Shown: piece after piece, positions 22,514 to 47,917 of the stretch
Position numbering within the stretch: position 1 is the first letter of the stretch
How the letters are laid out: each line of letters opens with the position of its first letter
Assembly: GCA_033439765.1 (NCBI GenBank)
Contig: JAULSN010000002.1
Span: 4,154,001 to 4,218,000 of the forward strand
Direction: 5' to 3'
Length of the DNA stretch: 64,000 nucleotides
From: Lasiosphaeria ovina
Lineage: Eukaryota > Ascomycota > Sordariomycetes > Sordariales > Lasiosphaeriaceae
Position numbers and translations under genes: made by a program
The notes under the pieces: generated by a model
The model's input: only the letters and a program-made list of their open reading frames with translations
Told to the model about the DNA's origin: nothing
Database searches by the model: none

Positions 22514-24135
22514 TTAAAACGGCCGCCCGCTCTCCTTCCACGCCCGTGACGTGGGCGTCGTCCCTTTGGGTGTCACGACGCCGAACCGCTTCTCGCCGTA
22601 CTTTGACAAGCGCTCCTCGGTATAGTCTCGGGAGTCGTCGTCAAAGTCGGGGTCCGGATAGACGCTCTCGCTGTAGTAGCGCTCGGGGTACAGCCGCCGG
22701 CCGCTGCTCCCCCCGGTGCCCGGGCGAATGGTCTCCATGGATGGCCGTGGCTTGGGCTTAGGCGTCTTCGGCGTCGGCACGTAGGTGCCACGCCCGGACA
22801 CGGCAATGTCCTTGACAATGCCGTCAATCTCGCGCTGGATATCGCTGACGCGCATTACCCCGTTGCTCGTCATGGTCTCCTCCTCGCTCGTGCGGGGCGA
22901 CTGGCTGCGTAGCTCGGCCATGTCCGTCCGCACGCGGATGATGGGCTTGATTTTCCCGCCGCGCCCAGCCCGAGTGCTCCGTACGCTGCGAGTAGTGCCC
23001 CTCCTCCCACCGCGGCTTCCCCCTCGGCCAAGCTTGCCACCGCCCGCGCTACTCCCGACCGTTGAGTTATCCCACCCGGCAGGCTTCTGGGCCACCTCCA
23101 CGTCTACGTCTGCGACGCGGCTAAGCATCGTACGTGGAAACCAACCGCCACGCTCGCGTGAGCGGAAGATCGGCCGCAGGGCTGGCGCAGACGCCGTGAT
23201 AAGCGCCAGGTTCGTCTCAATGGCAGAAGTGACGAAGCCGATGTTGGAGGTGGGGTCAGACAGCAGCGTCAGACCAAACAATCCTTGAAGAAGCAGCACC
23301 AAGCGGATAACCGAAGTAATAGTGACCCTAAGACGATGTGAGCTTGAGTTCGAGACACACAAAGAATGCATAATACCGGCACGGTAAGAAGGATGCTACT
23401 CACAGGAAGCCGAGGAGAAAGACGAACAAGAGCGCAATCTTGGTGCGCTTGGGTATCTTGAGGTCAATAAAGACCCAAAGGGGCAGGCCAAGAATCATCA
23501 AGTCCATGACGATGTTGAAGGCGGCCGTGCAGGTATACAGGATGCCGCGGTCGACGCAACGGCCGCCTCGGACAGTAGGGTCCCAGTTGAAGGCTATTGG
23601 CAAGCATTGTAGTGTAATGGCAAAGAAGACGGCAACCATCTGCGCGACGTTGGCAACGTTGAGCCAGAGGAGGAAGCGCCGCACGCCGTCCTTCTGCCCG
23701 AACAAGCGGGTCAGGAAGATAAGCACAGACGACTTCACCAGGGAGAGGATTGGGTTGTACAGGATCTGCACGGCGTAGGACCAAATCAGGGCCTCGGTAG
23801 GGTCATGGGGCGGCACTTGATCGATGCGGATGCCAACAAAGTTTGTTTTGATAACTACATGGCGTCAGTAGGGGTGCTCCAGGTAAGTAGTAGAGGCAAG
23901 CTAGGATTGACGTACAGAAGTAGCTTATGATAGTCTCGGCGACGGACATGAGCATGGCTATGCATATGAGCCAGTCATCGAGCGCGAACTGCCTCGTGGC
24001 TAGCCTGCCGGCGGCGCGGGTGGCGACGACGAGCAGGGCCAGGGCAGGGAAGAAGAAGTTGACGAAGAGCGCAAAGATCTGAAGGCCGGACGGTGCCGGG
24101 TAAGAGGGCGGGCTGAGTCTCGAAAAGGCGTCCAT
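22514..24135 (-). CDS. Seven-transmembrane fungal rhodopsin-domain (Pth11-like) membrane protein
   Basis: Three exons (24135-23916, 23854-23404, 23327-22514) give 494 residues. Introns of 61 and 76 nt fall within membrane helices. Seven hydrophobic segments are visible: LQIFALFVNFFFPALALLVV, DDWLICIAMLMSVAETIISY, the IWSYAVQILYNPILSLVKSS segment, LWLNVANVAQMVAVFFAITL, YTCTAAFNIVMDLMILGLPL, KIALLFVFLLGFLVTITSVI, and the FVTSAIETNLALITASAPAL segment. The pattern of RLATRQFALDDW after helix 1, Lys/Ser in helix 3 (SLVKSSVLIFLTRLF), and a final helix ending in ALRPIF is that of the fungal rhodopsin-like family that includes Pth11. A cytosolic tail of about 210 residues is Arg/Gly/Ser-rich and ends in an acidic/basic mix. 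There is no CFEM domain, so it is not a classical Pth11 receptor. A role in surface or nutrient sensing is family-level inference. The gene is isolated by more than 4 kb on each side. Confidence 0.85.
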
Positions 24136-27100
24136 GACGCAAGACGGAAGCGGTGCTATCTCATACCAGACGTTGGTGGCTGTAATATCGAAACAGTCCC
24201 CATCAGAGACAAGAAGCAGCAACAACAATAGCAACAACAGAGTCGGATGAGACAGTCAGCAGAGCATTCAACGACAGAGAGACGGAAGTGAGACGGGCAG
24301 CCAAGGTGTGGGAATATGCATCAAGATATAGGAGACGGCAGGCCTTCGGGATGCTCGCGAGGCGAGCTGGCGGTGGCGACGGGAAAACACATCACGAGCA
24401 GCTTACGGGCAGCAGCGAGCCGTCTCTGCTTCTTGCTTGCCAGCGCTGGCGTCACTAGAGGCGGGAAGAGAGCCTCGATGGCAGATGCATGTAGATCTGT
24501 GAGTCGTCTCGTCTCATCGTTTGGTGCGACTCGCATGCAGAGTCCCGGCCGGATAAATCTGCCTCATGTGTCAAGATGGCTTTGCAGCAGATCGGGCGAG
24601 GCACACGAGAGGGAGCAATGAGGGCCCCTTGGGACCTGCATATCCATTCAGCAGTGGCAACAGTAGTAGCAACAGCACGATCTACAGCAATAGCATCGTT
24701 GATACTCGACAGGTGCACTTCAAGACTGGGGCAGCCCATGGCTCACGACAATTGAGCAGTGACTATAAACAATCACTGTGGTGGAGAGAAGAAAGGGAAT
24801 CGGTTGCGAGCAAAGGCGCCGCCGAAACAGGGCCATCTCAGCGACTTAGCTCAGCGTCGGGTCTGGGCAAGAGGCTATCGGCGGCCAGTAGCGGACCGGC
24901 ACTCGAGCACCTACACCTCAGCTATCTTTGCTCAGTAGACTTCACAGAGAGAGGAAGCATCGGACGGGAGTTTGGGACCTTGGCTGCCACACTTGCGGCC
25001 GCGGCCCGGATAAATGAGTTTCTTGAGAAGGTCGGAAACCTCAGGAGAGACTCTTGCGACTAAGACTTAGGACAACCTAGGACCAAAGGGGAGAGCGGCG
25101 GTTGCCGGACTGGCCTCGAAAGACAACGGCGCATCCATGTTGCCGAAGGTTCCAGATGGCTTCGAAGGCATTCGCGGTACCGCACAATCCAGAAGCTGGG
25201 AGGGAGCCAGAACGAGAGCGAGCAGCGTGGCATGCTTGCGAGCAATGCTAGGTGATCAAACGAACCATAAATGCTCAGTCGGCGCATCGTGGCAGGTGCA
25301 GGGACCAGGGCGTTATGCGATGCAATGGATGACGGCGCCGGCAATCGAAGGCCCAGAGCCCCAGATCCGACCAGAAAGGGCCACATACAGATGATCCGCC
25401 GTGCAGCCGTTGGTTGGCATGCAAGTCTGGGGAAGCGGCATTCGGCGGCAGACTGCCGGTTGCCAACAGAGGAGCACTCGCTTGCTGGAAAATTCCCCAG
25501 ACAGACTGACTGACCGATGAGGCCCGAGCTGCGGACCGACTCCGAGATGAAGAGTAAAAAAAAAGAGACACAGTCTGGCCGTCTGGCGTGTGTGAAACAT
25601 GGTCCAGATGGATGCGGGCAGCCAATCAGCGCTGCGGGTGGGGTTGACAGGTCGGTCCAAAAACGGCACTCTGCAGAGGGTTAGGGGAGGGCGGCCAATG
25701 GCAGTGGTTGGCTGGCTCGATTCGTTCCTGCGTGCCATGTCTATCCCCTGAAATCGGATTTCTGCCGAAAAGGCTGGCGAGATCCTCAAACACCACACAC
25801 AACTCACATGCCTAAACTCTACGTACAGTACCTAGAGGCCATGGCGGGCAGCACGCTATCTATCGCACAGACCCCCCCAGGCATTGCCATCTTCCGTGCA
25901 CCCCGTCGAACTGACTTGCCTCCGTCGCTCGCTCAGGCATCAGACGGCCACCTGTGATGGGACGAAGGAAAGAACGACGAGGGGCACCATGGATCGGATG
26001 CAATCGCACAGCTGCACCTCCCTGGCAGATCGGATCAAAGAACAGACGTCAGTCGCTATCGATGTCAATGGCAGGCTCAGGGACAGGGCACCAAGACGTG
26101 CATTCTCCCCCAAGATGATAAGATGCAGCCCGTAACTCCCCAAGCTTCCCCACACAGAAAGATGCCTTCCCCAGAGTTCAGAGCCGGATCCAGACAGACG
26201 AACACCGCCGGCGTCTGTGCGGCGGCCTATGCCAACGTCGCCTTCCCTCCATCCTCTTGTCTCCTGTGTGTCGCCCATTTAGCCAGATCCACGCCTCCAA
26301 GCTCGCCACAGCCATGGCACGTCGGCCTCCGCCTAGAGGGGACATGCACGCATCGGATGCGACAGCAATGCGTCGAGAATGTTCTTTTTTCCGTCTGAAG
26401 CTTGCAAGATGCGCTGCGATTGTCAAGACTCGTCCGGGGATCGCCGAGCTTGGAAGAGCTCTGCTTGATGGTCAGAAGAACACCAAGAGAGTCAAGTCTT
26501 CCGGAATGCTACGTCTCCGACCATGGACCATCGGGAGATTGGGACAGGGGATGGAGCGTCGGCACTTTGTGAGCCGTGTTTTTTGAGAGCTTGCATCCGG
26601 CCTCCGCAATTGCCATGGTCCAAACTCCGAGGAAAAGGTGTGCGACACAATTCTCCCGAAATATTTCCCCAGAAAGATGCACACGCCAAGGCCAGCGGCA
26701 GTCGACTTCGTGTTGTTGACCTGGGAATGAGGTGGGCTTCTTAGTCTATCTATACGAGCCCAGCCCGGGAAGGTCATCTAATTATCGGTTAGGACTGACG
26801 GGCGACCGCCCAAAATTTGCTTGCTATCCAGGATTTGTCTAAGTAGGTTACTTCTCTCTGGATGAGGTTCTCGCCAACCCCGGATACACTCGAAGAGTTA
26901 CATACGGCCCCGTGATCCACCGCAACATGACTGGCCCCTTGCTCCTTCTCCATTCCTCTTCGCTCTCTTCACTAAACCTAGCGAATACCCAATCCCCACA
27001 CGCACCTCCCAAACTAGGCTACCTGTTGAGCCACGGCGTCGCTTCTTAGCGGAGCGGCGGTTCATCCTGCTGACTAGGAGAATCGTCTCCGGTCCGGGAC

Positions 27101-28449: not shown

Positions 28450-31400
28450 ATGCCGATGGCGGCTCCCGATCCATGGACGTCGGGGGATCGGCTTGTCGTG
28501 GGCGACTTGGAGACGCCCGACTCTCACTCGGCGCCAGCAACCCAAGCCGACCCAAGCAAGCCCGTCCAGGTCGCAGATGATGGGTCTGTAGCAATCGTGT
28601 CGGCTACAACGCCGGATCCTGCCAATGCCCAAAGCTCAGCCGAGGACCCAGACCCCGTCCAATTGCCTGACAAAGCTAGAAACGAAGCCGCAATTGAAAA
28701 ACCAGTCCCTAGGGAAGTCATTGACATTCCTCTTGGATCCCCAAAGACCGAAGCGCTAAACCCTCCCGTGGACGCCACTGCTTCAAACGTCGCAACTCCA
28801 AAAGAGGGCGGCGGGGGACGCCGGGCAAATAATGCCCAGCCAGGAAAGGGAACCAAGGGAGGTGGCCAGCCCGAGGTGACCCAAAAGAGCACCAAAAAGC
28901 CAGATAAGGCAGAAAAGGCCAACAAAGCCGAGCCCAAGGTCAGTTGTGTGCTCTGTTACACATTGATTAAACACGTTCAACTTCAATTGAGGCTGATAAA
29001 CTTCAGGACCCCCCGGGCTTGCAAGTCATTGTGCCACAGTTCGCAGCTGAATCTAGCTTCTCGCCGCGCGTGGACATTGTGGCAGTCCACGATATCGAGG
29101 AAACCATTCGATATGCTTGGGTATTCAGAAGAAAATATACGCCATGGGCGGGTGAGTTCCGCGGCATGACCAGTCGTGAGGGAGAAGCTCGTCCAGACGG
29201 CAGTCCAGCTGGCATTCCGCGGAAAAGGAGGCCGTCTGCGCCGGAAAGAAACCCAAGCGGCGAAGCTCGCGTCACCTCACAAGCAAAGCCAAAGGCGACA
29301 GACGACTCGCACATTGAGAATTGGCTCCTCAGTGTTGACGATGACCCCACCGAGCCAACAGAGACCTTTGTCCAACAAGACACAAGAGATCTTGTCGAGT
29401 TTGGCACCGACGAAGCCGGGCCATCAATAGTGAGACCTCCAATACAGGATGAAGTTGGCGAGGGGTCCCCGACTGGCCTTCTTGCCCCGGTTCCAGAGGA
29501 AGACGATGCTGCCTCTGCCCGAGGGGTAGACAACACTCCGAAGCACGGACACGTCCGCCGAAAACCAACAGCCCCAAAGCATAAGAGACGCCCCAATTCT
29601 CAGCTTCTTGATGAGGCAAATGATGGCAAAAATACTGACGCCAACGCCAACGCCATGGGTGAGGGGCGCCGAACCGAGAATGATCATATTGACGACCGAC
29701 AGTCTTCGGACCGCTATCACTTGGCCGAGCGGCGCGTCAATTGGCTTTCGGAACCGAATATGCTTCCCGCCGAAATCAAGGACCTCCGCGTCATGTGCTA
29801 CTACTACTATGGCCCTGGAAGTGTCTCGTCTCCGTGGTCTCCATGGCAGTACCTCACCGAGAGGGCGGAAGATCTGATTGAACGTCTCGCAGAGCGGAGG
29901 AAATCTGACACCATTAACTACGACGAAGTACCCATCATTTTGCTAGGACTTGGATTCGGATGTTTGATTTTACAGAGGGCAGTTGACATACTAGCAGAGT
30001 CGCCTGACAAGATACCGGGTTCAAGTGAAATTTTGAATCTGATAGCCGGGGCCGTTTTGCTAGATGCGCCGTCACCCGAGCCAGAGGATAATACAGCAAA
30101 AAAACGTCCGCCATTAGTGTTCCCTCGAAGTCAGGCCCAGAAGTCGAAGAAAGCCTGGACAGTGGACTGGTTCGAGAAATCGGGCAGCACCGCGGAATCG
30201 AAAATAGAGCGGTCCCCGCTGTGGCAGAGGTTCTCTGCCGCCGCCCAGACGAACACCATATCCGTGGCGTGGCATTATTCATTAGCAGCACAAGTCAGCA
30301 GTGCCAAGGCAAGTCCGGATACCCAAAGAGCATAATATTTCAAATTTCACAAACGCCACGTCGACTAACTTTCATCCGCGGGCAGGAGCTAGCATTCGAT
30401 GTCCCTGGGGTGCTCTTCGTTCCAAGTGTATCGAAAACGGCACACCGTCTCAGCAGGTTTGAGGGCCCTGGCGACGATGATTATCATGCCATAACGTACA
30501 GGATCAAGAGTTCGCTGCTTTTCAAATGCTCTGCCACTCCATCACAGGCGCTGCAAAAGCGGCTCGTTGATTTCATTGATCAAAAGTTTCCCGTCGACTC
30601 GCAAGATGAGCAAGGGCGAACTGCTCTCCATGTTGCCGCCTCTGTTCCCAACCACGAGGCTGTGGCCAGGCTTGTATTCCGGGGCAAGGCGTCTGTCGCA
30701 ATCAAAAACAACGAGGGACAAATTCCACTCCACGTGGCGATAATCTCCGCAACACAAAAGGCCAGACCCCCAAACCATCCACTGCGTGGTCCATACATCA
30801 ATGTGATCAAGCGGCTGAGAGATTTGTCGTACGGCAACGAGCCTGACAACGACGGGAAATCTCCATGGAGCTATGCGATGGGTCCCGTGTACCAATGGAT
30901 ATTGAGGTTGAGAGACAACTCTTTGATAACAGGCAGCTCCTCCTCGGCTACCACAAACAAGCTGGAATCCTTAAACCAGCCGACTGGCTTACGTCTAACC
31001 GCCTGCAATAGCTTTGACGTGACGCTTGCCGAACTGTTTCTGCGCCACAGACATGGGAAGTTGACAGAGAAGCTTCACTTGGACGAGGTACCAAGCGTCT
31101 ACGACGTCATCTACAAGGAAAACTCTGGAGTTCAGCAGCAACTGGCCCTCTCGCGGCCAAAGGAGGTGAAGGACAGGGTCACATGCCGTTGGGTGCACCT
31201 GCCGGCCAACAACGTATGTTCCGTGATCAAGCACAGAAACACCTAACGACTATTAGCTAACCGCCTATACAGGAGCAATGGGTCCATGTGAGCTTGTATA
31301 AGGCGTGCTACATGCTTCCTAGGCGCTTACTGATACTGGATAGGATCTCTTCATTAGCATGGGCATCCAGGATGGCTCAATGGGCGGACAACGGAACGAG

Positions 31401-34400
31401 GGTATGGATATTCAACCTCCTATTCGACTCAACCTGTGCTGGCCAACTTCGGACTGCTCACAATCTCTCCCTCCAGGCTCTCGATTCATTGGCCGCTACA
31501 TGATACCGCAAGCGAGGAGGTATAAACATGTGCGTTGAGTATATTTCCAGATTATAGTGTGTGTTGTTCGATCGTGTGGTGCGTGCTGTTAATTCATCGA
31601 AGACTCACTTTCCCGCCAGGAAGGACTTATTGCACCCACAGACTTCGAGCAGCCCGAGCAACCTTAAAAGCGATGAAAGCTCGATGACTGCCGTCGCAAG
31701 CACAAATGCCCCTCCCGCGGAAGGGCTTTCGTCGACAGATGAGTCCGAAGCAGAGCAGGTCTCGTCTGAGCAGGTGACACTCAAACCTAGGAGTGGGAGG
31801 AATTCAATAGCCCAAGTGATGAAGACCGACAATGATGCTATTGTTATTTTCGTAAGTCACGCCAATTCACTACAAGCCGACGAGAGACTGATTAGGGAAA
31901 ACTGGCAAAAGATGCCTATATTAGGGTTTGAACGGCATCGACATCGAAAATATCTCAGTCGGGCGATTACGATAGCTCAAAATCAGAGCGCCCGGAGGTC
32001 TCATTATAATCGACGGTTTGGGCCGATGGCCGGCCCTCCTCCCCGTCCCATGGGGATGGGGCCGCATCCGATGATGAGGGTCGTGAATCGAGAGGGCGAG
32101 GCAGCACTGTTAGGTGGCTACTTGGATGCCGCCGGACTTGACGTCAAGCCCTTACACTGTCGCCGAACTTTGGATCAGTTCTCTTATTACATGCTATCCT
32201 CGACCGAGACTAGGGACAGAACCCAGGTGGCTTACAGATGGGCAAAGAAGCCTCCATCGGCACTTGGGTTTCCAGATGTTCTTGCAAAAGATCGGCCAAT
32301 TATCATGGGTTAGTGGCAGTTTCAAGCCCCTGAGCCAAGGCAATACCTAACACGATCCCTATTTCTAGTCGATCAACTCTGGCTATGGGCTCTACATGAC
32401 GGTGAGTGACTCTGAGTTCATTACCTAGCGGCCCGGGAGTCGAGGCGTTCTGAAGCTGACAATAGCCATGATTCCAAGGGACTGTCATCACGAGCTTTCC
32501 GAACACCTGGCAGCCGGAAGAAAAGTTCAACTTGCGCAATGTTGTAGTCGACGAGCTTAGGGGAAACAAAGATCGCCCAATTATCAAGACCACGGAGGAC
32601 TTTATTCACTTGATCTTGAAGACAAGTGTTGACTTTTTCAAGCGAAAAGGACCCATGGACTGCCAATTTCACGAGTGCTTCCAATCGTCCATCAACAAGG
32701 TCGTAAGTGACAGAATGAAGACCCGGCGAGCCGAATCATGCAACTACTTTGATGTACTGACCGCTCTCTCTGTAGGCTGAAGGGCAAGGCAATTTGTTCT
32801 TGGAATTCAAACAAGCTGCCAGGAAGCTGAACCTTGGCAACCTCGAAGCAAAGAAACGGACTGCTGAGATTGAGATTCTCTTCGGCTTGGACCAGGAGAC
32901 AGAGCTTCTCGTTGAAATCATGGATATCCAAGACGAATTGACAATAGTCAAGACGATCCTAGCGCAGCAAAAAGACGTCCTTGAAAAGCTTCTTCGCCTC
33001 TATCCCAAAAAAATCAAAGACGACGACGAAGAGGAGACTAGAATTCCGCCGTCGAAAGGGAAAAGCGAGCTAGAGGTTCTGTTGCTGGCACTACTCAGGG
33101 ACAACATGGGCGACAAGGCAGGCAACAGAGAGGACGCGATGAGCCAGGATCCTGATGACGGCTCAGGACAGCTAAAGACCCACCAAAGAAAAGTGGCCGA
33201 GACAAAAGGAAAAGAAAGAGAGGGAGGCCAGCGACCAGTCTCAGGTGCCCCGAAGCCACTTAGCGCCCACAAAGGCAGCATCCTGGAAAACCGCGAACTG
33301 ATGCACGAGACCATCACGGTCGTTGACAACAATATCCGGGTCGTGGCAGACATGCTACTGTATGCGGAAAAGGTCCAGAAATCGGTGCGTATCTACACGT
33401 TTGCGAAACGAACGCGAAAATCATAGGGTTTAACACTTTTGACAGCTAGACAATCTCCTGGACCTCAAGCAGAAACATGCAAACGCCTGGGAGGCGCGTT
33501 TCGCGCGCGAAGGCTCTGAGGAGACCCAACGACACGGAAACGTAAGAAAGTTGCTTTTGAGAAGGATGTGCCGAGGATTGCAGACTCACGTTTCTCTTTC
33601 TAGATTATCCTCGTCTTCACCCTCGTCACAATCATCTTCGTAAGTCTCCGACGTCGGTCCCTACTCCCAGGGTACCAAGCCAACCAGCTGACCAAAATTT
33701 CTGGCAGTTACCGCTGTCGTTCATTTCCAGCTTCTTCGCCCTCGACATCGATGTCTTTCCCAAGAATCCGGAAGGTGACACGACTTGGCCGATTGGTGAA
33801 GTGTCGGGATACTTATGTGAGAAGAACCCGTCGAAGACATGTCGGGATAAAAAGCACTAACGTGGCGACAGTTGGATTATCTGCCTCCATTTTTATTCCC
33901 CTGGTATGTCTAGCGCTCTACGTGAACGATATTATAGCTCGCTGGCGAAAGGCTCGGAAATGGCTTGGGGAGGAGGTTGGACATCTAGAGCGCCCTCCAC
34001 CCCTGGAAGATATGAACCAGACAGAACACGATTCAGATTTCGAAGGTCCCGGGTGGGGCCGCCCTCCACCTGTTCAGATTATCGAAGTGAGCGACACATC
34101 ATCAAACACCAGCTCCGTCCACGCCCCTTTGTTTGGAAGATTCATGTTTCATGCCAAAATTCCGTTGCTCCGAGCACTATGGCGGTACAGGTACTACAGA
34201 CGGTCAAAAAGCATCGGCATCGGCGGATGGAACGACACATACAAGAGAGACTATCTGCTACATTACTTCAGCAAGAAGGTGCGTAAGGCTATACGACATT
34301 TCATTCGTCGCTGGTTGCGAAAGATGGGCAAGCCAGTTCGCAAGATGCGGAAGATGAAGAGGGCCAGGGACAGACGGCGAGCTAGGGCTAGAGGATCTGG

Positions 34401-35115
34401 AAACGACAGCGACTCAGGCACAGGCTGGCATGGCAGCAGCTCTTCGTCCACGGTCTCGACCAGCAGCGCCACGACGAGTAGCGATAACAGCTCTTCGAAT
34501 TCCGGGACTTCTCGGTCTGTTCCGATCTCTCGATCTCCTCCTCGGCGTCGACGCCGACTTACGAGGTGGTTCCGCAGACGCCGGGCCAGCACTTCGTCCG
34601 AAGTGACCCATGCGTCGGTGACTAGTTACGATAACTCAGGCGGTAGCGGCTCCGAGACATCCCGCCGCCGAAGTAAGAAGGAGGCGAATGCACACGAAGG
34701 AGTGCTCGGTGCCGTCATGGGATTGCCGGGGCTCCTCCGCCGCAGGTTAGTGGGCAAGCCGGTGAGCGAGGGAAGTAATGCGTCTGGTATGAGGGGGGCA
34801 GTTACAGCTTCCACGGCTTCGGGCAGCTTGGATAACCGGCCCCGGACCAGGTCAACCAGATCAACCAGATCGGGAGAGAGCCCGCCCTCGCCAAAGCAAC
34901 CCGGCGCTGGGGAAAAAGAAAACAAGGATCTCCAGAACGGAGAAAAGCAAGAGACAGAAGATGTGGCAGCGGGCGCGCCCCCGTCTCCGTCGGTTCCTAC
35001 GCCTCCGTCTCCGCCCGTCTTGCGGAATGCCTTTCAGCGGCTTGTGGTTCGCCGTAAGGGCCGGGCTAAGAGCCCCGATACCGAGACGGGAGCCCGCCGA
35101 TCTAAGCGTTCTTAG
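28450..35115 (+). CDS. NLR-type hydrolase-like / ankyrin / CorA-like membrane fusion protein
   Basis: I join 14 exons: 28450-28938, 29007-30308, 30386-31213, 31273-31287, 31344-31529, about 31603-31851, 31912-32308, 32369-32401, 32479-32702, 32776-33384, 33446-33541, 33604-33639, 33708-33816 and 33872-35115. Together they keep frame for 1,938 residues. The acceptor near 31602 is uncertain, and the intron at 30309 would use a GC donor. Residues 1-165 are low complexity. From GLQVIVP (about 167) comes an alpha/beta-hydrolase-like domain of the type found at the N-terminus of fungal NLRs (VDIVAVHD, then LPAEIKDLRVMCYYYYGP). Its nucleophile elbow reads GLGFGC (477-482), so the usual GHSLGG serine is lost. 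About two ankyrin repeats follow (658-730: DEQGRTALHVAA, NNEGQIPLHVAI). The CorA-like family block comes next: RWVHLPANNEQWVHDLF, FMPILGFERHRHRKYL, RRTLDQFSYYML, VDQLWLWALHDGTVITSFP. Two membrane helices follow (about 1477-1500 and 1522-1545), with PKNPEGDTTWPIGEVSGY between them and no GMN motif. A basic Ser-rich tail of about 390 residues ends the protein. The function is inferred to be signalling or allorecognition at a membrane, not proven ion transport. Confidence 0.78.
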
Positions 35116-36020
35116 ACAAGTTTGTCCTTAAATGAAGTCTAGGTCGCTCGGAGGCAACCGAAACTAGTATTATCAAGGCGCCGAAACCTGCCTCTTCTGA
35201 GCAGACTAAAAAGTGGAGGAGATGTACGGACCCTCTCAATCGACATAATTTTTCTATTACCGTTTCATGAAAACGGTTACTTGGTTAGTAATCTCCGTTA
35301 GTAATAGGCAGCCGGTACAACTTTAGAGACCTATACCCATAGCATATACATTAGATAGGTGCAGTTCCTTATTGCGTATTAGTGACAATAATCGATCCCT
35401 TCGACTCTATGGTAAGTACGTCGCAAATTACCAACACAAGCATAACCATCAACCCGCCGTATTTCGGCCGAAGTAGATGAAATCGAGTATTGAATGAGCG
35501 CTGACGCAAGGAGGAGGCCGCAAAATTGGTTGATTTAGGTTAAGTTGTGTGAGAACTGAGAAGAAGCTAAATACACGTTTGACGCGGCAACAACCCCAGA
35601 ACTCGAGACCCACTAAATTTGAGCGGCAGGTCCACAGACTATTGCCTCAACTCTTTTTTTATAGGGGCCTAGGGCGGCTGTAAATCCCCGGCGATCTAGG
35701 CAGATTTTCCCTTTGTGTAACCTCGAGCAATGATGCCCGATGATGGGGCGGCGTTCCACCCAACATTCATTGGTATATGATAATTCTGCTAGATCCACTG
35801 GCAGGTTTAAACGCAACCTCTTGTGTGAGTAGGGTGATAAGCGGCATGACGGGTTGTGTGCGTGGCAAAATATAAAGCACTGTTTGTCGATCATGGTCGA
35901 CGACATTTGTCAGTTCTGAAGCCGTGCTTGTCTTCCTCAAGTCTGTCACGATGAGAATTTGCTAGTACAAGGCGCCTGGAGCATCGAGGCAACTCTGCGC
36001 GAGGTCTATAAGTACGATAC
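35116..36020. other. Degenerate AT-richer spacer between the fusion gene and the HET relic
   Basis: No open frame here shows a recognisable domain. A HET gene would normally have its HET domain in this position, upstream of the surviving C-terminal part, but I cannot see the domain's usual motifs. It may be lost or decayed beyond recognition. Confidence 0.45.
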
Positions 36021-36845
36021 ATGTCTCTGGAAGATACCATGTCAGAAGCCGGCCGGGAAATCATGTACAAAACTGGCCCAGTTCCTAAAGGCGATCGACG
36101 CTGCAGGGAACTTGAGCGCATGCCCTTCGTGGGCGCCCCGATGGGACAAGCCCGAGATCCACTACGCTCTGCGCAGCTGCCGCAGGAAATTCCGAGCGTG
36201 GATCACGCCCGAGTCTTTCGAGCTCGGCGGGGAGCTCACTAGGTCTTTCTTCACGACCCTGGCCGTCTTGGTGGGCAAGATAGCCTTTGCGACGGACCCC
36301 TTCTCGGACGAGCTCGCCGAGGACCTGCCTCGAGCGATTCAATTCTGGAAGAGCATTATTTCGTATGATTCGTCATCCTGCCGGCTGACCCAAATGGAAA
36401 ATTAAAGATGTCTCAGCGCACTTTGACAGCGGATAAACAAATGGTGGAAATGGTGGACTCGGGAGATAAGGCCGATATTTTAGGGTTATGCTGTGGGGAT
36501 AGCTGGGCCAACTTTGCCGCATTCTGGACCTATCTGTACCGCTAGGGCCAAGAGGTCCCCGAGCTAGAGGGGGCTGCACAGAACGGGTTTCACGGCGACT
36601 TCATGAAAGAGGCTGCCGAGGTGTGCCGGAACCGCCGCGTGTTCTACACGGATAACGGGTATTTCGGGGTTGGCCCCAAGATTCTCCAAGAGGGCGACAT
36701 GGTTTTCGTCTTGCCCCTGTCCGTTCCCTTTGTATTGCGGCCCCAGGGGGGTCACTACATTCTGGCGGGAGAGTGCTATGTTGACGGTGTTATGAAGGGA
36801 GAAATGATGCGGGGGGCCAACATCCAAAGGGCCGAGATCCATTGA
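36021..36845 (+). pseudogene. Relic of a HET (heterokaryon incompatibility) gene, C-terminal portion
   Basis: Three pieces in two frames together match the C-terminal half of fungal HET proteins. Piece 1 (from 36021) reads MSLEDTMSEAGREIMYKTG. Piece 2 (from about 36124 to a TAA at 36403) begins PSWAPRWDKP, the typical PSWVPDW-like element, in a frame shifted by one base at a run of three C (36123-36125). Piece 3 (from about 36409) contains SWANFAAFWTYLYR, an in-frame TAG at 36543-36545, then CRNRRVFYTDNGYFGVGP, QEGDMVFVLPL and LAGECYVDGVM, ending at TGA 36843. The last block is the signature C-terminus of HET proteins (R-R-x-F, G-x-x-G-x-G-P, GD-V-x-LL, ECYVHGIM). The HET domain itself is not visible. 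The gene is broken by at least one frameshift and one stop. Confidence 0.78.
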
Positions 36846-37691
36846 GGTATAGACTGACGCGCTACATTTAAGAAATCGCGATTCGACTAAGTCGAAGGCG
36901 TTGCAACTGTTGCGTGTAGCTAGAAGGATTTAGCGGAATTGAGAGGAAGTAAAGTTGGCTATGCCTAGTTTCGATGGTAATCCAAGTCTAACAATAGAAG
37001 TCGAAATATCTTCAATAGGTGGGAGACGTTCTTCCTGCACATACGAGGATTAATCACAGCGCAAGACTTACCCCTTCAAATTGTTTTGCTGCAGTCCGTG
37101 CGTTGGCATCTTAGGGGGAAGGAATATATAGCTAGGCGGCTGGTGCAATATGTTATATACCGGGCCACCGGAGATTTAAAAATTGATCTTGAGCATCGTC
37201 TTGAAGTAGTATGATTAGTCCTTTGATAATTTGAGTGCGTGATATGTGTTTTGCTGCACAAGTGTTCGTAATAATGAGTAAACGGCATGGATGTGTCTTG
37301 AGAGAAGGAGCGACGTTCACTTCCACATTGGTCAATGCTCAGGACTAACACATTTAACCCTAACCCTGTACCAAGCAGCAAGGCTAAGGGACAAGAGAAG
37401 GCGCTGGAAAGGAAAACGCCACACTAGCCGAGGCTGAGAAATGCAGCCCGCAGCAATTCCTCGCGACCGCGACTTTAAGTTTTGCTGGACTGCATCCTTG
37501 CGACTGACTTCCCCGACGGACCCCTCACCTTCAAACCCACGACGAGACCTACGGCGCGCGCGCCCATGCATAGCAGCCGACGACATTCATTTCTAGTCTC
37601 GTTATCAATAGCCCAAGGCCACCAAGCAGCGAGATCCAGTCAGCTACCCAGCAGCTTCAGCGGCCCGTTTAGCTAGCAGCACGCCGCCATC
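36846..37691. promoter_or_regulatory. Region upstream of RDS3
   Basis: About 850 bp lie between the HET relic and RDS3. The left half is AT-rich with no reading frame of note. The right half is the likely RDS3 promoter and contains a telomere-like TTAACCCTAACCCT box at 37354-37367. Confidence 0.5.
37354..37367 (-). promoter_or_regulatory. Telomere-repeat-like box (telobox) upstream of RDS3
   Basis: TTAACCCTAACCCT is two and a third units of the fungal telomere repeat TTAGGG read on the minus strand, 325 bp before the RDS3 start. Such boxes can bind Myb-type telobox proteins such as Tbf1-like factors. A regulatory role here is inference. Confidence 0.45.
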
Positions 37692-38218
37692 ATGTCTCGC
37701 CATCACCCGTGAGTCTTTCTTGCCGTCCTCACCGAGTTGCAAACGCACAACCCCCCCTCCCCAAGAAGGCAAAGGCAACGGGAAAGAAGAAAAGAACCAT
37801 AGCTAACAGAAGGGGTGAAAAAAAAAACAGCGACCTCGTCATGTGCCGCAAGCAGTCGGGCATCGCCATCGGGCGGCTCTGCGACAAGTGCGACGGCAAG
37901 TGCCCCGTGTGCGACTCGTACGTGCGGCCGACGACGCTGGTGCGCATCTGCGACGAGTGCAGCTTCGGCAACTACCAGAATAAGTGCGTCGTGTGCGGCG
38001 GCGAAGGGATCTCGGACGCCTTTTATTGTTTTGAGTGCACGCGCCTCGAGAAGGACCGTGATGGCTGCCCGAAGATTATCAATTTGGGTAGTTCGAGGAC
38101 GGATGTCAGTATATTCTCTCTCTTTCCTTTTTGTTGTTGTTTTAAATGTATATGTGCTAACATGACCAAAAAAAAACAGCTGTTCTACCAAAAAAAAACA
38201 AATCGCACTTTCACCTAG
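37692..38218 (+). CDS. RDS3: Rds3/PHF5A, SF3b zinc-finger subunit of U2 snRNP
   Basis: Three exons (37692-37708, 37831-38104, 38180-38218) encode 109 residues, against 110 in human PHF5A. The first exon holds only MSRHHP. Introns are 122 and 75 nt. The first has a CTAAC branch site at about 37803 and ends in AAAAACAG, and the second ends AAACAG. The protein reads [32 protein letters not shown] and onward through [20 protein letters not shown] to [19 protein letters not shown]. It carries all the CxxC pairs that bind three zinc ions in the trefoil knot of this family. It acts in the spliceosome at branch-site recognition with Hsh155/SF3B1. The last residues ([12 protein letters not shown]) are less basic than the usual KKYGFKK ending. 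Confidence 0.95.
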
Positions 38219-38925
38219 CACTCGAGCGGCCCGGGCCTGGGCTAGAGTGGCTCTTTTTTTCTCTCTTCTTTTATTGTCTGTCTGTCTGCTTCTCTCGCCA
38301 GCAGCTTTGGAGGCGCCTTTCCGCGATGTCCTCCACGATCATCCGCCGACCTCGTTTCTTCTCTCCGCTTTAGCTACGATAGAGACGACGGAGCGGAATG
38401 CATCACACGGTGCAGACGGGACGGGACCAAATGGGCAGCAGCAAAGTCGGTCGGCTGGGTGGTTTTTATTTTCTCTTTCTTCAAAATAGGCTTGGGGCGT
38501 TGATGGCGTTTCATGTCGAGCAAATGGGGTATGTAAAAGTTGCATCTGAATCTCATGTTATCTTGGATTACACCTGCTATTTCTCAGACCATGTTTAACT
38601 GAGCAAAAAACCGGTTTAGATACCGCACCAAAGGAAACGAGACGGAAGATGAAGAGGGATGTGTAAATATTCCATGGTTGTGGTTTCGTATTATTGATAC
38701 CCAAAACCGACTACATGCCGTGCTGCATTACACATACGTGCCTGCCAATGTGCCTACCTACTCAAAAAGACAACGCCAACTAAGAAGCCAATGTGCGCCT
38801 CCCCTAATGCGAGTAAACAAGTAAACTGTGGCACAAAGATATACAAGAAGGTATTAAAAACCGCCAGTCCCAAAACCGACACCACAAAGGCAACAATAAG
38901 CAGCCCCGCAAATGCACTGCACGTA
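38219..38925. other. Convergent intergenic region between RDS3 and PEX26
   Basis: These 707 bp between two stop codons contain T-rich and pyrimidine tracts (38247-38300) typical of 3' ends. I see no gene in it. Confidence 0.5.
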
Positions 38926-40459
38926 TTATATATAACTAACTTTAACGCCCATGCCGGCCGTCGCCTTGACCTTGCCCCAGCCCGTGCCGAGGATGCGGGC
39001 AATCCGCTCGCGGATGCTGCGGCGGCCAAACATCAAGAGCAGCGCCACGATGAACGCGAGCGTCCGGTACAAGAGCACCGGGTTGGCGTGGAAGGACAGC
39101 GCCGCGCGCTCGACGAGCGTGCGGAGGTTGGCCAACACCATGGCCGCTTTGGTGCCAAAGGACGGCGGCGTGGCGGCGGCGGCTTTGCTCTTCTTGGTCG
39201 AAGACGGCAGGGGCCGTGATATGCTGCCGCTGCCGCTGCTTGGCTGGGGATTCCTGCTGCTGCTGCTGCTGATGGTTCCCTTGCGGTCGCGTGTGCTGCG
39301 GTCGATGCCGTAGTCCACCTCGCCCGAGGAGGATGACGAGGACGAGGACGAGGACGACGACGCGGCAGAGACGGCCTCGCGCCGCGCGCGCCCCTCGTCT
39401 AGACGCTTCCGCTCGCGCTCCTCGTTCTCGGCCCGCAGTCTCCGGCTCTCCTCGATGCCGCGGCGGAGCTCGTCGTCGCGCCGCTGGCGGTCCTCCTGCT
39501 CGCGCCGCTCGGCATCCTTCTGGTCGTCCTGCAGGCTCTGTAGCGCCTGTAGGAAGGCGTCGCGCCGCTCCTCGTCGAGCACGGGGCTCATGCTGATGAA
39601 CTCGCGGGCGTAGTCCCACTCGTTGTTGCGCAGCAGGACGTGCAGCGTGTACAGCTCGAGGATCTTGACCCGCGCGTTCAGGTCCCGCGGCGTGTCGGCG
39701 CCGCCGCTGTGCGACGGCCCCTTGCCGGGGGCAGGCGATTGGAACCGCCGCGGCGACGACGGGGGGAACCGCTCCGAGATGGCGTCCAGGTTCGGCGTGC
39801 GCGCCGCCGCCAAGTAGTTCTCGAGGCGTTTCTGGTTCAGCGTCTGGGTCTTGGCGTGTGCGAGAAGAATCGTTGCCCTGCAACATTATCATAAAACATT
39901 AGCGCCTGATTCGCGAGAAGGGAGGGAAATGGGGGTTGCCGTACAAGTTAATGACCACGTCCGAGTCCACGTCGCCTTCGACGCCGTGGTAGCCGTTGCT
40001 GACCACTTCCTCCCACACGTGGCCGTCGCGGACCTTGGCGCAGAGCGTCCTCCATTCCTGGGTGCCGAACGCATCCTTGCCCTCGTCGGCGTCCAGCTCG
40101 AGGATCGCGTTAAGGATGGTGAGATACAGGCTCCAGACCTTGATCCTCGTCGACCTCGACGCCCGCGCGACGGGGGCGGGCTCAAAGGCCTCGCCGTTGG
40201 GGTCGTCGGGCGGCGGCGGCGCAACGAGCGGCAGGACCGTCGAGAGCGCCTCGGGCAGCCGACGCGTCAGGAACAGGGTCGACGCCTGGCGGTATGTCTT
40301 GGAGATGCTGGAGGCCGAGTAGTTGCGCGCCGATGCTGTGGAGGATGAAAGCGATGAGATGGAGGCCGACAGGAGGTGTGGTCTTGTCGCTGATGACGAG
40401 TACGAGTCCGTAGCCGTCGGGCTCGGGGCCTCGGTGAAAGATGCTCTGCTGGAAGCCAT
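38926..40459 (-). CDS. PEX26: Peroxin 26 (tail-anchored peroxisomal membrane protein)
   Basis: Two exons (40459-39945, 39877-38926) encode 488 residues. The 67-nt intron joins [17 protein letters not shown]. The N-terminus is Ser-rich, followed by [20 protein letters not shown], a helical segment typical of fungal Pex26, and then [19 protein letters not shown]. The C-terminal half has [20 protein letters not shown], a charged coiled-coil-like stretch (about 300-360), a run of twelve serines, and a single hydrophobic segment near the end ([20 protein letters not shown]) followed by basic residues. This is the layout of a tail-anchored protein. In Neurospora and relatives Pex26 docks the Pex1-Pex6 AAA complex on peroxisomes to recycle Pex5 and Pex20. 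The family call is from the overall pattern, without a search. Confidence 0.75.
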
Positions 40460-40488
40460 CGGCTGGACTGTACGATTCTCAAGTGGGC

Positions 40489-40502
40489 GTGTGTGTGTGT
40501 GT
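40489..40502. repeat. Short GT dinucleotide run just upstream of PEX26
   Basis: Seven GT units, continuing as an imperfect GTAT/GTGT tract, lie about 30 bp upstream of the PEX26 start codon on its promoter or leader side. Confidence 0.85.
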
Positions 40503-41315
40503 ATGTGTGTATTTGCACGTAGGTGTTTACGCGCACGTCTCTATCGGATTCGAGAGGGAGGAGGCGTTCGCATCTGCAAGGTCCCGGCAGGAGGGGTAGC
40601 GGGCCTGAGAAATGGATATACGGCAATGGCAGGCTTGTTCGTCTTGACCTCTGGATGTCTCCCGCTGTCGCTGTCCCTCTGCGACGGATCTGCGGCTTGC
40701 TTAATTAATTGCTAGCGCAGAGTCACGGCCATGGCGCGAGGACCTCGGGGGAAATTCCGAATTGCGGTTTCGGTTCAAACGATTCACCAAAATAAGGGTT
40801 CATCGAGAACAGCGCGCAGCAGCGGCCATGGCATGGGCCGGGTTCAGGAGGCGGATGCGGAGGTGGAGGCAGTTGCTACCGCTGGCTCTGTGGGGATTCT
40901 GTTGACGTTGTTTTGTCCGGTGACGTGAAAAGGGCGGCTGGGGTTGGCTCTTCGGTGATTGAGCATTCCAGCTTCCTGGGCCTCGGTTGCCGACGGCTAG
41001 TGGGGCAGCTTGGGGAGTGCAACTGGTTTAGAGCACGACTTTGATTAGGCCTAGACTTCTACGGAGATACAGGTGCTGAGCTAACTAAGTTGACTTTCCT
41101 GGTAGCTTGCACATGCACGTAGAAAACGTCTGGGACTGAAGTAAACAACCATTTGCATGAAGATTAATTAGTGCATACGTAGCAACGTTTATATGCAAGC
41201 AACCTCGTGAACCATTTCCCGTGCCTAGGTACCTACTTTCTAAGTCGACAGCAATATCCGTATCCAGACCTAAAGATACAAGAAACCCCGTGCTTCTCTC
41301 TGTGTCGGCCACAGC

Positions 41316-41327
41316 AGGGTTAGGGTT
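41316..41327 (+). promoter_or_regulatory. Telomere-repeat-like box
   Basis: AGGGTTAGGGTT is two units of the TTAGGG telomere repeat, about 0.86 kb upstream of the PEX26 start and 0.6 kb beyond the UTP10 stop. Whether it regulates either gene is unknown. Confidence 0.35.
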
Positions 41328-41919
41328 CACACTGATAAAACCAAGTTGTACGGTTTCAGTGAGCATTATGAGATTATGATGGAAAAGAGAAAAGGCATGA
41401 ATAAAAAGAAAGGCATGCGGTTTGTACTGATCCAAGACCGCCCCGAGTCAACACAAACTCGGCCCGATTCGGCCGCTGAACCGATGCTGTTGATGTCTGG
41501 CTAGGCTCACTAGCATCTCGACCCCGGCCCGACTACTCTACTTCTCCACGCTCTGCTCGAGGCATCTACGTTACAATAAGCTCGGCCTAGTTTTAATAGA
41601 TAAATGATAATAGTATCTTGTCCGTCGCGCAAAACACGCAACGCTGAATAGACAGACAGTTTTGTTGACACGTCTCCTATCCGACAACTCTCGACGGCCC
41701 AGGGCCTTCATGTACTAACACGACTATCCAACCCACCACTCGACATGCCAAAAGCACATGGGCCTTTTTCCGCAAAAATACACACCTCAGGTGAGCCTCA
41801 AACCCAGAACACCGCTGCTGTATCTTGACTATGTGACATAAGCTTCCTCTTCAACCCCCGTACCTGTCCAAACGTTGCCGGAGTACGTACATACCCAACC
41901 GCCCTAGAGCAGGGTTACA

Positions 41920-44900
41920 CTACTGCAACATCGAGTCCAGGCTCTCTCCTAGTGTTTGCTCGATGGCCACGATCCAGCGGCGATTCTCCCGCTCTACTGT
42001 CTCGTCGTCGTCGTCTTGTAGCTCGCTGATATACGGCAGCATCTCAGGCAGCGACTGCAGCCACTCCTCGCCCAGACGAGCCGTCAGCTCCTGCTCGCAC
42101 TTCACCACCGCCAGGCGCACGGCGGGCTGCTCCGATCGGAGATGTTTAAGCAGCGCTCCGTTCAACTCCTTGTAGTGCTCCTTTGAGTCGGCAGCTGCGG
42201 CGAGCTCCACAACAGCTAGCGCAAGCTCCTCGGTCGACTCGATAGTTCCCGCCAACAGGAACTGCCCTGTAAGTACAGGGGCAACGGCGTTGAAGTGCGC
42301 GGGTGCTTGCCAGAACCCATCCTGGTCATGTTCGAAGCACTTAATCAGAGTGCAGAGGACTTGCTTCCACAGCTCCTTCTCGCCTGCCTCCTTAAAATCC
42401 GTTTTGCCCAGGACAGCGACTGCGCTCTCCACGATATTAGACGCATAGCTGGTCACAATTGACTTGAGGCTGCCGAAGAAGGTATCCAGTAACGAGTACA
42501 GACTCAGTAGGCGCAACGTCCTCCCAGCGACGTCGCTCTTGGGGAGCCCCGACCACGACCACTCGACAAACCGGGCAAACACGGGTCGGAAAGCGGCGTC
42601 GTTTAGCTTGTATATCATCTTGAGAGCATCATCGTTGATAGCGCTCTCGACCTGAGCAAGTTCCGTTGCTCCAAGCTCGCCAGTTTGGTTGGTAGCATTA
42701 AGTCTCCTCAGGTCGAGAGCACTGAGGAAAATGGCCGAGATGGAGGTAATGTTTTTGGCGATAACTGACTTGGGGTGTTTTTCGAGGGCCATGCCAACAA
42801 TTTGGAGGTATTCGGTGAGGGCCTGTTGTCTGTTAGTTACTGCTCCTGTATATACTTTGTCGAGCTCTCTTACCGCGAAACCCGAGGCAGCCGCATGGGC
42901 CCAGTTCTTCTCCAGGGCAACAAATAGTGCCTTCGGATCAACCAGCTTCGCCAGGAGCTGAAGGCAGTGGGATCGATTGCTATTCGATTCTTCGTCGAGA
43001 CCAGCGGCCGCCGACGAGTTCGAGCAAGCCAGCAACCGATCAAGGTAAGCGCCCGACATCATGTACGGAATGTGCTGAGCCAGCGCTGCTATAAAGGCAT
43101 ATGCCGCATTGTGAAGCTCCGGGTTTGGCTTTTCGCCACCAATGCTCTCTTCGATATAAGCCAGTGCCTTGGGAATTGCCGCCGGGAGCACAGGCACGAT
43201 GCCGTCTTGCAAGACGTCGACGAGCGAGGCCAGACACAAAAGGGCCATGATGCGGAGGGTCTGAGATGACTGGCCAAGGCAGTGGTCGCCCACAATTGTC
43301 GCCGCGGCAGCTGCGACCGCCTCAATATCCTTCTTGCCATACTTCTCGGCGATCTTGTCGACACAAGTCACTGCCGTGTGCTTGTAGTCCATGTCATCCG
43401 ACTCTCGAATAACAGCAGTGAGCTGGGGCAAGAAAGCGAGCAAGGCCGTCCTCGACTTCGGGTCCGTGCTGCCTTCGCTGTCCACACGCAGCTCGAGGGC
43501 TCGCAAAACCTTCTGCCGCAGTCCAACCTTGGGCCGATCGAGCAGAGCTTCCACGCTCTTGATGAACTCGGCGATTGATAACAGGTTCAGAAGATTCGAC
43601 AGCGCGTCGCCGCAGCGGTTGTACAGGGGCTTTTTGGTCTTGACAGTGCTTGCGAGCGTGAGCAGGCTCTCTAGCAGTGTGGCGTAAAGATCACGAATCC
43701 TGGCCGAGTCCATGTCGTCCCTCTCAGCCAACTGGGTAATTTCCCGTCTCAGCCGCCGGTTCGCAAGTAGGTGTGGCAAAAGCGCGAGCTGCTTTGTCGC
43801 GGTTTTTGCAGGGTCCTTCTCACCATGATCGTTCTTTCCAAGGAGCGTGGCCGACAAAGTGGGCTTCGGCTTGAAAATGTCGCTGACCAGGTCCAGGAAC
43901 TTGATCAAAGTCTGCAGTTGGATTTCAACAGAGAAGTGGCTCAAGAGCTGGGTGGTGAATGAGACCATGCTATCTGTGGCACCATACTTGTCCACAAACA
44001 TGGCGAGCACCGCGAAGAGGAAATCTTCTGGCCCAAGGTTTTCGATCAGAGACACGAACAGACCGTACTTTCGGTGAGAGGGTACGTGTTCGTAGGCAGT
44101 TACGAAACTCGTGAGAAGTTCCGATGTGCTTGCCACAAGGTTTCTCCGAGTCCTGCGGAATGTGTCGATTAGAGGAGGAATTACCTCCTTGACGGTCTGG
44201 TTAATGACATGAGCCGAGTAGTCGTCGGCCTGCTTGAGCACTGAGCCGCCCATGAAAGTGAAAATGGGCATCACACTCTGCAGCACAACCTCGGGAGCGG
44301 TTTTCGCCAGACTGGCCACAAGAAGCAACGCGGCATTGATAACGGTGGGGCTGGATGATTTCTGAATGCAGGCCGCCAATACGTCTCCATGACCTACGGA
44401 TGCATCAATCGTCAAGTTTTTGTCGTTCTTGAAGGCTGGCATCATTGCCAGGAGGCTGCTTAGCACAAGGTTTTGAAGATACCCCAGTTCCGAACCAATA
44501 AGAGTCCGGAGATGTTGAAGGTCTGCCAGGGCGTTGAAGAGGCTCGTGAGCAGTTCCGGGTGGTCTTGTGGGTTGGATTCCTGGACAAGTTCCAAAATAA
44601 ACGTGGTATTGTTCAGAACGGCGTTGAGCTCTGGGCTACCTTGCAGGCTAACGCTTCGGTTTTGCTCTGACGCACTGACCCGCCTCCGTTTGGCCGCTGG
44701 CGGCTCAATGACCATATTGACGCCTTCCTGCAGAGTCTGGAGAAAGTCAAGGAGTATGTCAGTTGTGAGTTCCACCTTCCGCAGGAGGTCAGCAGCCTCG
44801 GCAGGAATGGAACTCGGTCCAGACGAGGGTCGGGAAACGGTTTGCGAAAGAGCGAGCATTATCTTCGCCATGGAAAACCGCGTATCGGACTTCATTGACG

Positions 44901-47401: not shown

Positions 47402-47917
47402 GATGGGCTGTTCCCTGCTGGGTCAGCTGCCTCTTGCGATCCTGGTCGAGTAAGACGGTCAGGAAGTCGTCGACATTAACGGCGTGCGCTTTTCGTCCAG
47501 TCGTTTCTCGAGAGGGGCTCTCGGTGCAAGTCGGGAGAGGTAGCACGCAACTCGGGGGCAGCGCCTTCGCAATATCGCAGGTTCCAGTTGGAGAGGCGAT
47601 ATGGTGCTATGCTGGTATCAAGGCTGCGGTAGCTTCAAGAAGAAAGCAATTGTTTCTTTTGGCGCAACAGAGGTCTTGTCTGCTAAACAAGCTTGCAGCC
47701 CACTACGCCCGAGGTTTTTTTTTTTTTTTTTTTACTTTGCGGGGAGCCGATAAGAAGCTTTGGCCAATCACTGCGATCGGATAACCCCAAAAATAGGTGG
47801 ATTGGCGCAATCGGTTGGAGATGCACCAGGGATCAAGAAAAAAAAAGAAGCACAACGGACCACAACAGACCGACAACTTCCCCACCAGAATTCAGAAAAG
47901 ACATTCAGCATATCGCG
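47402..47917. promoter_or_regulatory. Bidirectional promoter of UTP10 and NOC3
   Basis: This 516-bp space lies between head-to-head start codons of two nucleolar ribosome-assembly genes. It contains a 19-T tract (47715-47733), a CCAAT box on the plus strand (47764-47768) and one on the minus strand (ATTGG, 47801-47805). The tract could exclude nucleosomes, as in many co-regulated ribosome-biogenesis promoters. That role is inferred. Confidence 0.6.

Follow-up and report, generated by a model that had tools for sequence, protein, structure and literature searches.

What does a fungal protein do that carries a hydrolase-like head, ankyrin repeats and a CorA-type membrane module in one chain? 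The question is raised by a gene in a 64,000-nt window of the Lasiosphaeria ovina genome (C12:4154001-4218000 of the 51.7-Mb, 32-contig genome G000). All position numbers are those of the window; the labels C, L and P stand for contigs, loci of this genome and relative proteins, and the product of 28450..35115 is referred to as the focal protein. The reading favored here, with a probability of roughly 0.4, is that it belongs to a conserved Ascomycota family combining a SesB-type pseudo-hydrolase head, a short ankyrin block and a CorA module lacking the Gly-Met-Asn (GMN) filter motif, and that it serves as a receptor joined to a pore.

The locus is one spliced gene with a single frame, as an earlier sequence-only reading of the window had proposed: once the exons are joined, 1,900 codons run from the ATG at 28450 to the stop ending at 35115 with no internal stop, the remaining two frames of the spliced sequence contain 68 and 82 stops, and relatives are co-linear. 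The 14 exons of that proposal become 15 (Table 1). The intron at 31402-31476 is 75 nt long, a multiple of three, and free of stops in every frame, so that it could be read through; the relatives shown run directly over the site (QRHEG|SRLIDRY), and the lower count probably came from leaving it in. Thirteen of the 14 introns have GT-AG borders and intron 2 (30309-30385) has GC-AG. Read by eye, the donor of intron 2 is AAG|GCAAGT and an in-frame GT alternative follows 30293, 15 nt upstream; this intron may be alternatively spliced. Among the relatives shown, the sequence flanking eleven of the 14 junctions is conserved on either side. Junctions 1 and 2 sit in poorly conserved linkers and junction 6 is conserved on its donor side alone, its acceptor opening a variable loop, so these three are less certain.

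A first protein search yielded at least 54 related proteins (the 7986 candidates sharing most words were scored). P0001-P0006, from the genera Chaetomidium, Podospora, Cercophora, Echria, Remersonia and Staphylotrichum, are co-linear with the focal protein over 94-99% of residues 164-1560 at 42-47% identity, and farther relatives occur in Fusarium, Xylariaceae, Aspergillus, Onygenales and others. In the same genome L042 (C23) and L043 (C3), two loci known as frames, also hold head, ankyrin and CorA frames in this order, with elbows GYGFGG and GAGFGG and first transmembrane helices (TM1) ending in FFAIGI and LFAINV. Residue counts below refer to 148 fetched proteins plus the focal protein, of which 64 have a head at domain E < 1e-3; the third protein search took the best 120 of 209 matches, and no count is a census. 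The relatives in alignments A1 (28) and A2 (34) were picked from the 54 for having a head.

The head is predicted to have an alpha/beta-hydrolase fold of SesB/DUF676-like type, on the basis of a structure model of exon 2 and of homology to the hydrolase heads of NOD-like receptor (NLR)-type loci in the same genome. This upholds the earlier proposal of such a head, albeit with low Foldseek template modeling (TM)-scores, given below. The profile searches suggested at that time had a divided outcome: CorA and Ank_2 were matched, Pfam hydrolase models did not match the focal protein at E up to 1, and Abhydrolase_6 matched two of 28 relatives (best E 0.0018). The catalytic Ser of GxSxG is replaced by Gly479. 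Of the 64 heads, 57 have Gly at the nucleophile position and four (Apiospora) have Ser; Arg, Thr and Asn each occur once. The change from Ser to Gly in 57 rules out an ordinary hydrolase and, running through the whole family, it also rules out decay of a single gene copy; the degenerate head, earlier thought unusual, is the rule in an Ascomycota family and not an oddity. In A2 (35 rows) the only invariant columns of the exon-2 span are the two glycines of the elbow (exon-2 residues G316 and G318, which are G479 and G481 of the protein). In A1 (28 rows), where other columns are invariant as well, the corresponding P0001 residues 443 and 445 are likewise invariant glycines. It is likely that the elbow Gly has a binding or structural role, since a mere relic would hardly hold one residue so strictly. 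Where the NLR-type heads of L041 and L051 have His-Gly, at least 38 of the 64 heads have His-Asp by a simple pattern (12 unmatched), and GTPHxG is present in all four Ser heads and in none of the 60 non-Ser heads.

The family head profile, built with the focal protein included, is circular on those proteins but not on L041, L051, L048 or the Apiospora heads. It matches two NLR-type heads of this genome, with scores of 63 and 51 bits, which bears out the kinship with fungal NLR heads suggested earlier. These heads belong to the loci L041 and L051: the head of L041 adjoins a NACHT frame and that of L051 a P-loop frame, the latter identified by pattern rather than Pfam, own-genome loci being taken as frames and not as spliced models. 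Both heads look SesB-like by our own assignment from motifs and Pfam. Through this homology the focal head corresponds to the N-terminal effector or signaling domain of a known NLR class; passages in PMC4986451 and PMC9815663 describe SesB-like heads as a major fungal NLR class. The head at L041 (G000:C29:2976000-2985900, minus strand) has Cys replacing the elbow Ser (ASCFGG). The absence of NACHT/NB-ARC, likewise pointed out before, stands: over all 1,900 aa Pfam at E up to 1 finds CorA and Ank families alone, the focal protein contains no P-loop pattern [AG]x4GK[ST], and the window contains no NPHP3_N match among those listed genome-wide (150 of 189 candidates scored). An NLR with a hidden NACHT is ruled out by Pfam and the absent P-loop pattern. 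The C-terminal repeat domain expected of an NLR of the STAND (signal transduction ATPase with numerous domains) class is also lacking, the ankyrins being central (663-718) and the C-terminus consisting of CorA and tail. Scanned exon by exon, the genome has a very large HET- and NLR-type repertoire, with at least 150 HET matches (150 of 315 candidates scored) and at least 149 of NPHP3_N (150 of 189).

Pfam CorA (PF01544) matches the focal protein at E 3.8e-10 and Ank_2 at E 5.5e-6, the latter exactly on the cut-off of 27.3 bits; Ank_2 is found in 28/28 relatives at E up to 10. The ankyrins claimed earlier are present, then, but as few repeats in a short block. The CorA fold extends over cytosolic domain, stalk and TM1, and two TM helices lie at the C-terminal end, as in the metal ion transporter (MIT) superfamily; this tail had been recognized before, as had its basic, Ser-rich end, whose last 360 residues hold 75 K/R, 27 D/E and 57 S. 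What the sequence-only reading lacked is the loss of GMN, in whose place the focal protein has ALD, while the sequence of the CorA pore helix is conserved, as read with a profile (A4) mixing GMN-less and GMN-bearing relatives. In a passage of PMC4945025 GMN is stated to be essential for Mg2+ transport. TM1 was matched in 134 of 149 proteins: 73 without GMN, 42 with GMN and 19 unreadable. A sequence search of the PDB with P0012 alone, up to E 10, gave no CorA match, and the A2 profile gave 569 PDB matches, of which the 60 shown read as repeat proteins, either of ankyrin type or designed, and as ankyrin-bearing channels or toxins. A conserved block after TM2 (FGR..FH...P..R.LW, DYPL; 33930-35115) precedes the basic tail; its strict pattern occurs in 20/73 GMN-less and 0/42 GMN proteins, the focal copy failing the exact pattern.

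Head and filter can be compared in 55 proteins, five of the 64 having no TM1 match and four an unreadable TM1. All 51 non-Ser heads are GMN-less and all four Ser heads have GMN; the focal protein combines a head with a degenerate elbow, ankyrins and a TM1 lacking GMN in a single chain. On a CorA-core tree (141 of 146 core matches; quick method, Shimodaira-Hasegawa-like approximate likelihood ratio test (SH-aLRT) support only, many long branches flagged), the GMN state changes twice and head presence 19 times, many of these at short models. The tree's 56 Gly heads share one 76-row branch without any readable GMN (SH-aLRT 94; 99 for an inner 72-row branch). Since two GMN changes suffice, the losses of Ser and GMN amount to one or two events, and repeated independent co-loss is unsupported. 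Nor is GMN loss peculiar to headed proteins, as headless ankyrin-CorA relatives are also without it. An active head-CorA protein is not favored as the direct ancestor, the NLR-type heads scoring 63 and 51 bits and the Apiospora heads 28-32, which hints that the family heads are nearer to NLR heads. Mean identity between the focal protein and P0001-P0006 is 66-77% in CorA blocks, 67% in TM helices, 47% in the head core, 40% in the ankyrins, 17-29% in loops of the CorA part and about 20% in the tails; TM1 and stalk (67-74%) are among the best-kept parts. A fast front and a slow membrane part would fit a receptor-like division of labor, though they are no proof of one.

One further locus touches on this question. 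L048 (G000:C1:7677500-7684500, minus strand) shows one-strand frames with GHSIGG, GTPHRGS, a CorA core and LFGMN; two of its frames had no match in Pfam, ankyrin included. Its head scores 17.9 bits (E 1.3e-4) with the family profile, an underestimate because it is split by introns. L048 is possibly a natural active counterpart of the pseudo-head protein.

If the receptor-pore reading is right, the focal protein would assemble into a pentamer of CorA type whose head, ankyrins and C-tail lie in the cytosol. Rather than cleaving a substrate, the head would act as a surface for binding or self-association. Binding or release of a partner would be relayed by the ankyrins to the long helix of the stalk, opening or closing a pore that retains the CorA pore helix and not the Mg2+ filter, and the outcome would likely be a weakly selective ion flux serving as an alarm or cell-death signal. 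Such an NLR-like receptor would be switched by its membrane module instead of a NACHT ATPase. A role as sensor, pore or NLR substitute is an inference.

Several observations weigh against this. The functional role is drawn from sequence and models, and the recognized downstream neighbors are housekeeping genes. Foldseek gave low TM-scores for the head model (best match 0.18/0.28; 1vkh_A 0.27/0.41), perhaps partly owing to an insert of about 190 aa. The elbow is not universally Gly, since P0031, excluded from A2, has GRRHG with Arg. A protein search with residues 426-540 of P0019 at 1e-3 returned four family members and no NLR, so the NLR link is drawn from this genome. ZntB-type relatives function with other filter motifs, so loss of GMN is no proof of lost selectivity. 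With only one or two events, the coupling of head and GMN losses is statistically weak. There are, furthermore, 22 headless GMN-less proteins, some ankyrin-rich, so that loss of the filter does not go with the head alone; some of them form their own branch with ankyrin-rich proteins and others are short models beside headed ones, which suggests cut annotations for the latter.

The main competitor is a regulated housekeeping metal-ion channel or transporter, with head and ankyrins as regulatory add-ons sensing metabolites or lipids. The CorA fold and conserved pore helix speak for it, as do passages in PMC10694956 and PMC4945025 interpreting fungal CorA genes, and in PMC10694956 CorA expansions too, in terms of Mg2+ transport. 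It is nevertheless doubtful, given the 51/51 GMN-less non-Ser-head proteins and the separate GMN-bearing CorA loci in the same genome (L009, L014/L048, L015/L045, L049). Loss of the filter would suit a non-conducting membrane scaffold, in which the CorA part is a pentameric platform clustering heads, ankyrins and basic C-tail for signaling; the long Ser-rich tail and the post-TM2 motif, bearing in mind that the focal copy departs from the strict pattern, point the same way. Conservation of TM1 and stalk well above that of the head core argues against such a scaffold, which we consider unlikely.

Two other explanations fare much worse. It is very improbable that the head retains enzymatic activity through some unusual mechanism: the focal protein, P0001-P0009 and P0011 keep His617 and the modeled fold is intact, but an equivalent His occurs in only 12 of 44 aligned rows (the focal protein included), Ser survives only in the four Apiospora heads, and His-Asp widely replaces His-Gly. 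A pair of adjacent genes or a wrong splice chain, with no true fusion, would account for those relatives whose annotated models, 596-1076 aa long, have no head and comprise CorA only; full-length co-linear models in several genera, the frame order at L042 and L043, and headless models beside headed ones on the tree (P0064 by P0024), which suggest cut gene models, make this extremely improbable.

Beyond the single gene, it is conceivable, though on balance doubtful, that widespread fungal immune-type receptors work without a nucleotide switch, an NLR-derived pseudo-lipase head driving a filter-less CorA pore. If so, many genes of filamentous fungi that now pass for expanded CorA magnesium transporters would encode receptors or death channels, and recognition and execution would reside in one membrane protein, an NLR-like route to membrane damage that bypasses an ATPase switch. 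NLR effector heads are here linked with CorA transporters, subjects handled separately in the parts consulted of PMC4986451, PMC12258605, PMC12881547, PMC9815663, PMC10694956, PMC5371717, PMC11537073, PMC9511408 and PMC4945025. In the places examined in NLR papers, matches to "cora" were the word coral (12 of 19 in one set). Among the papers listed, mostly non-subscription literature, titles and abstract openings contained no description of the head-ankyrin-CorA combination or of the dead elbow, and the family is apparently undescribed so far. Even if the receptor reading is false, 73 of the 115 proteins with readable TM1 (among 149, a set gathered with this family as query) have no GMN; CorA expansions read as magnesium uptake need checking because so many fungal CorA-type proteins lack it. 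For structure-function work, a ready target is the Gly that the family conserves where the catalytic residue has been lost.

Table 1. Features of the gene at 28450..35115 (window positions).
Feature	Position	Strand	Basis
Whole gene, 15 exons, 1,900 aa	28450..35115	+	Spliced frame, junction conservation, co-linear relatives
Exon 1: weakly conserved N-tail, aa 1-163	28450..28938	+	19% mean identity to P0001-P0006
Exon 2: predicted pseudo alpha/beta-hydrolase head, aa 164-597, with low-confidence insert of ~190 aa	29007..30308	+	Structure model
His-Asp, aa 191-192 (His-Gly in NLR-type heads L041, L051)	29088..29093	+	
Elbow Gly-Leu-Gly-Phe-Gly, aa 477-481; nucleophile position Gly479	29946..29960	+	
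Exon 3: head end and linker (RFEGPGDDDY), ankyrins, start of CorA cytosolic domain, aa 598-873	30386..31213	+	
His617; by-eye match to the histidine of THSGMCKF in L051	30443..30445	+	
Ank_2 match, aa 663-718	30581..30748	+	Pfam
Exon 4 (EQWVH)	31273..31287	+	
Exon 5	31344..31401	+	
Exon 6	31477..31529	+	
Exon 7: variable loop, start less certain	31642..31851	+	
Exon 8: CorA cytosolic domain, HCRRTLDQF block	31912..32308	+	
Exon 9 (VDQLWLWALHD)	32369..32401	+	
Exon 10	32479..32702	+	
Exon 11: DIQDEL helices, loop, stalk	32776..33384	+	
Exon 12: stalk helix	33446..33541	+	
Exon 13: first half of TM1	33604..33639	+	
Exon 14: second half of TM1, filter position, loop, start of TM2	33708..33816	+	
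ALD, aa 1461-1463, in place of CorA GMN filter	33738..33746	+	
Exon 15: TM2 and basic, Ser-rich C-tail	33872..35115	+	

Among the frames scanned downstream of the gene, Pfam recognized PHF5-like, U3snoRNP10/HEATR1-type and Noc3-type neighbors (37673-49960). On the minus strand at 22517-24255, two frames match fungal rhodopsin PF20684 weakly and below cut-off (1.1e-4 and 0.018). Next to the gene, two frames at 35920-36842 bear a possible resemblance to the C-terminus of a HET-domain protein; they had no match in Pfam, and a HET-gene fragment conjectured at 36.5 kb was set aside. Elsewhere in the genome, equal-score match pairs on different contigs (C10:40116-40922/C23:5550819-5551625; C2:1489684/C32:2530508; C12:546377/C19:17771) suggest recent segmental copies or assembly duplicates.

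Compared with known systems, the focal protein resembles SesB-like NLR heads in predicted fold and N-terminal position. It differs from them in having Gly for Ser and no NACHT/NB-ARC behind the head, and the 60 non-Ser heads of its family have no GTPHxG. With CorA and ZntB of the MIT superfamily it shares the cytosolic domain, the stalk, two C-terminal TM helices and the pore helix sequence; unlike these, it has ALD for GMN and, in addition, ankyrins, a hydrolase head and a long basic tail. Non-catalytic hydrolase domains of neuroligin type also show an elbow Ser-to-Gly change and a recognition role on a membrane protein, but these are animal, extracellular and carried by a single TM helix, and no relation is claimed. 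Fungal ankyrin-CorA proteins have ankyrins and CorA as the focal protein does, and P0042-P0044, P0046 and P0047, in which no hydrolase head was detected, are GMN-less as well; AN6960, compared by annotation alone, is listed with ankyrin and CorA in a table of PMC5371717. The DUF676-CorA proteins (P0049 and P0051-P0053 of Apiospora, and probably L048) likewise set a hydrolase head on a CorA tail. The Apiospora proteins have no ankyrin in their Pfam lists, and the family profile ranks their heads, at 28-32 bits, lower than the NLR-type ones. In contrast to the focal protein, the DUF676-CorA group keeps the Ser elbow (CHSIGG or GHSIGG), GTPHxG and GMN, though it too has lost His-Gly, with Pro-Cys in its place.
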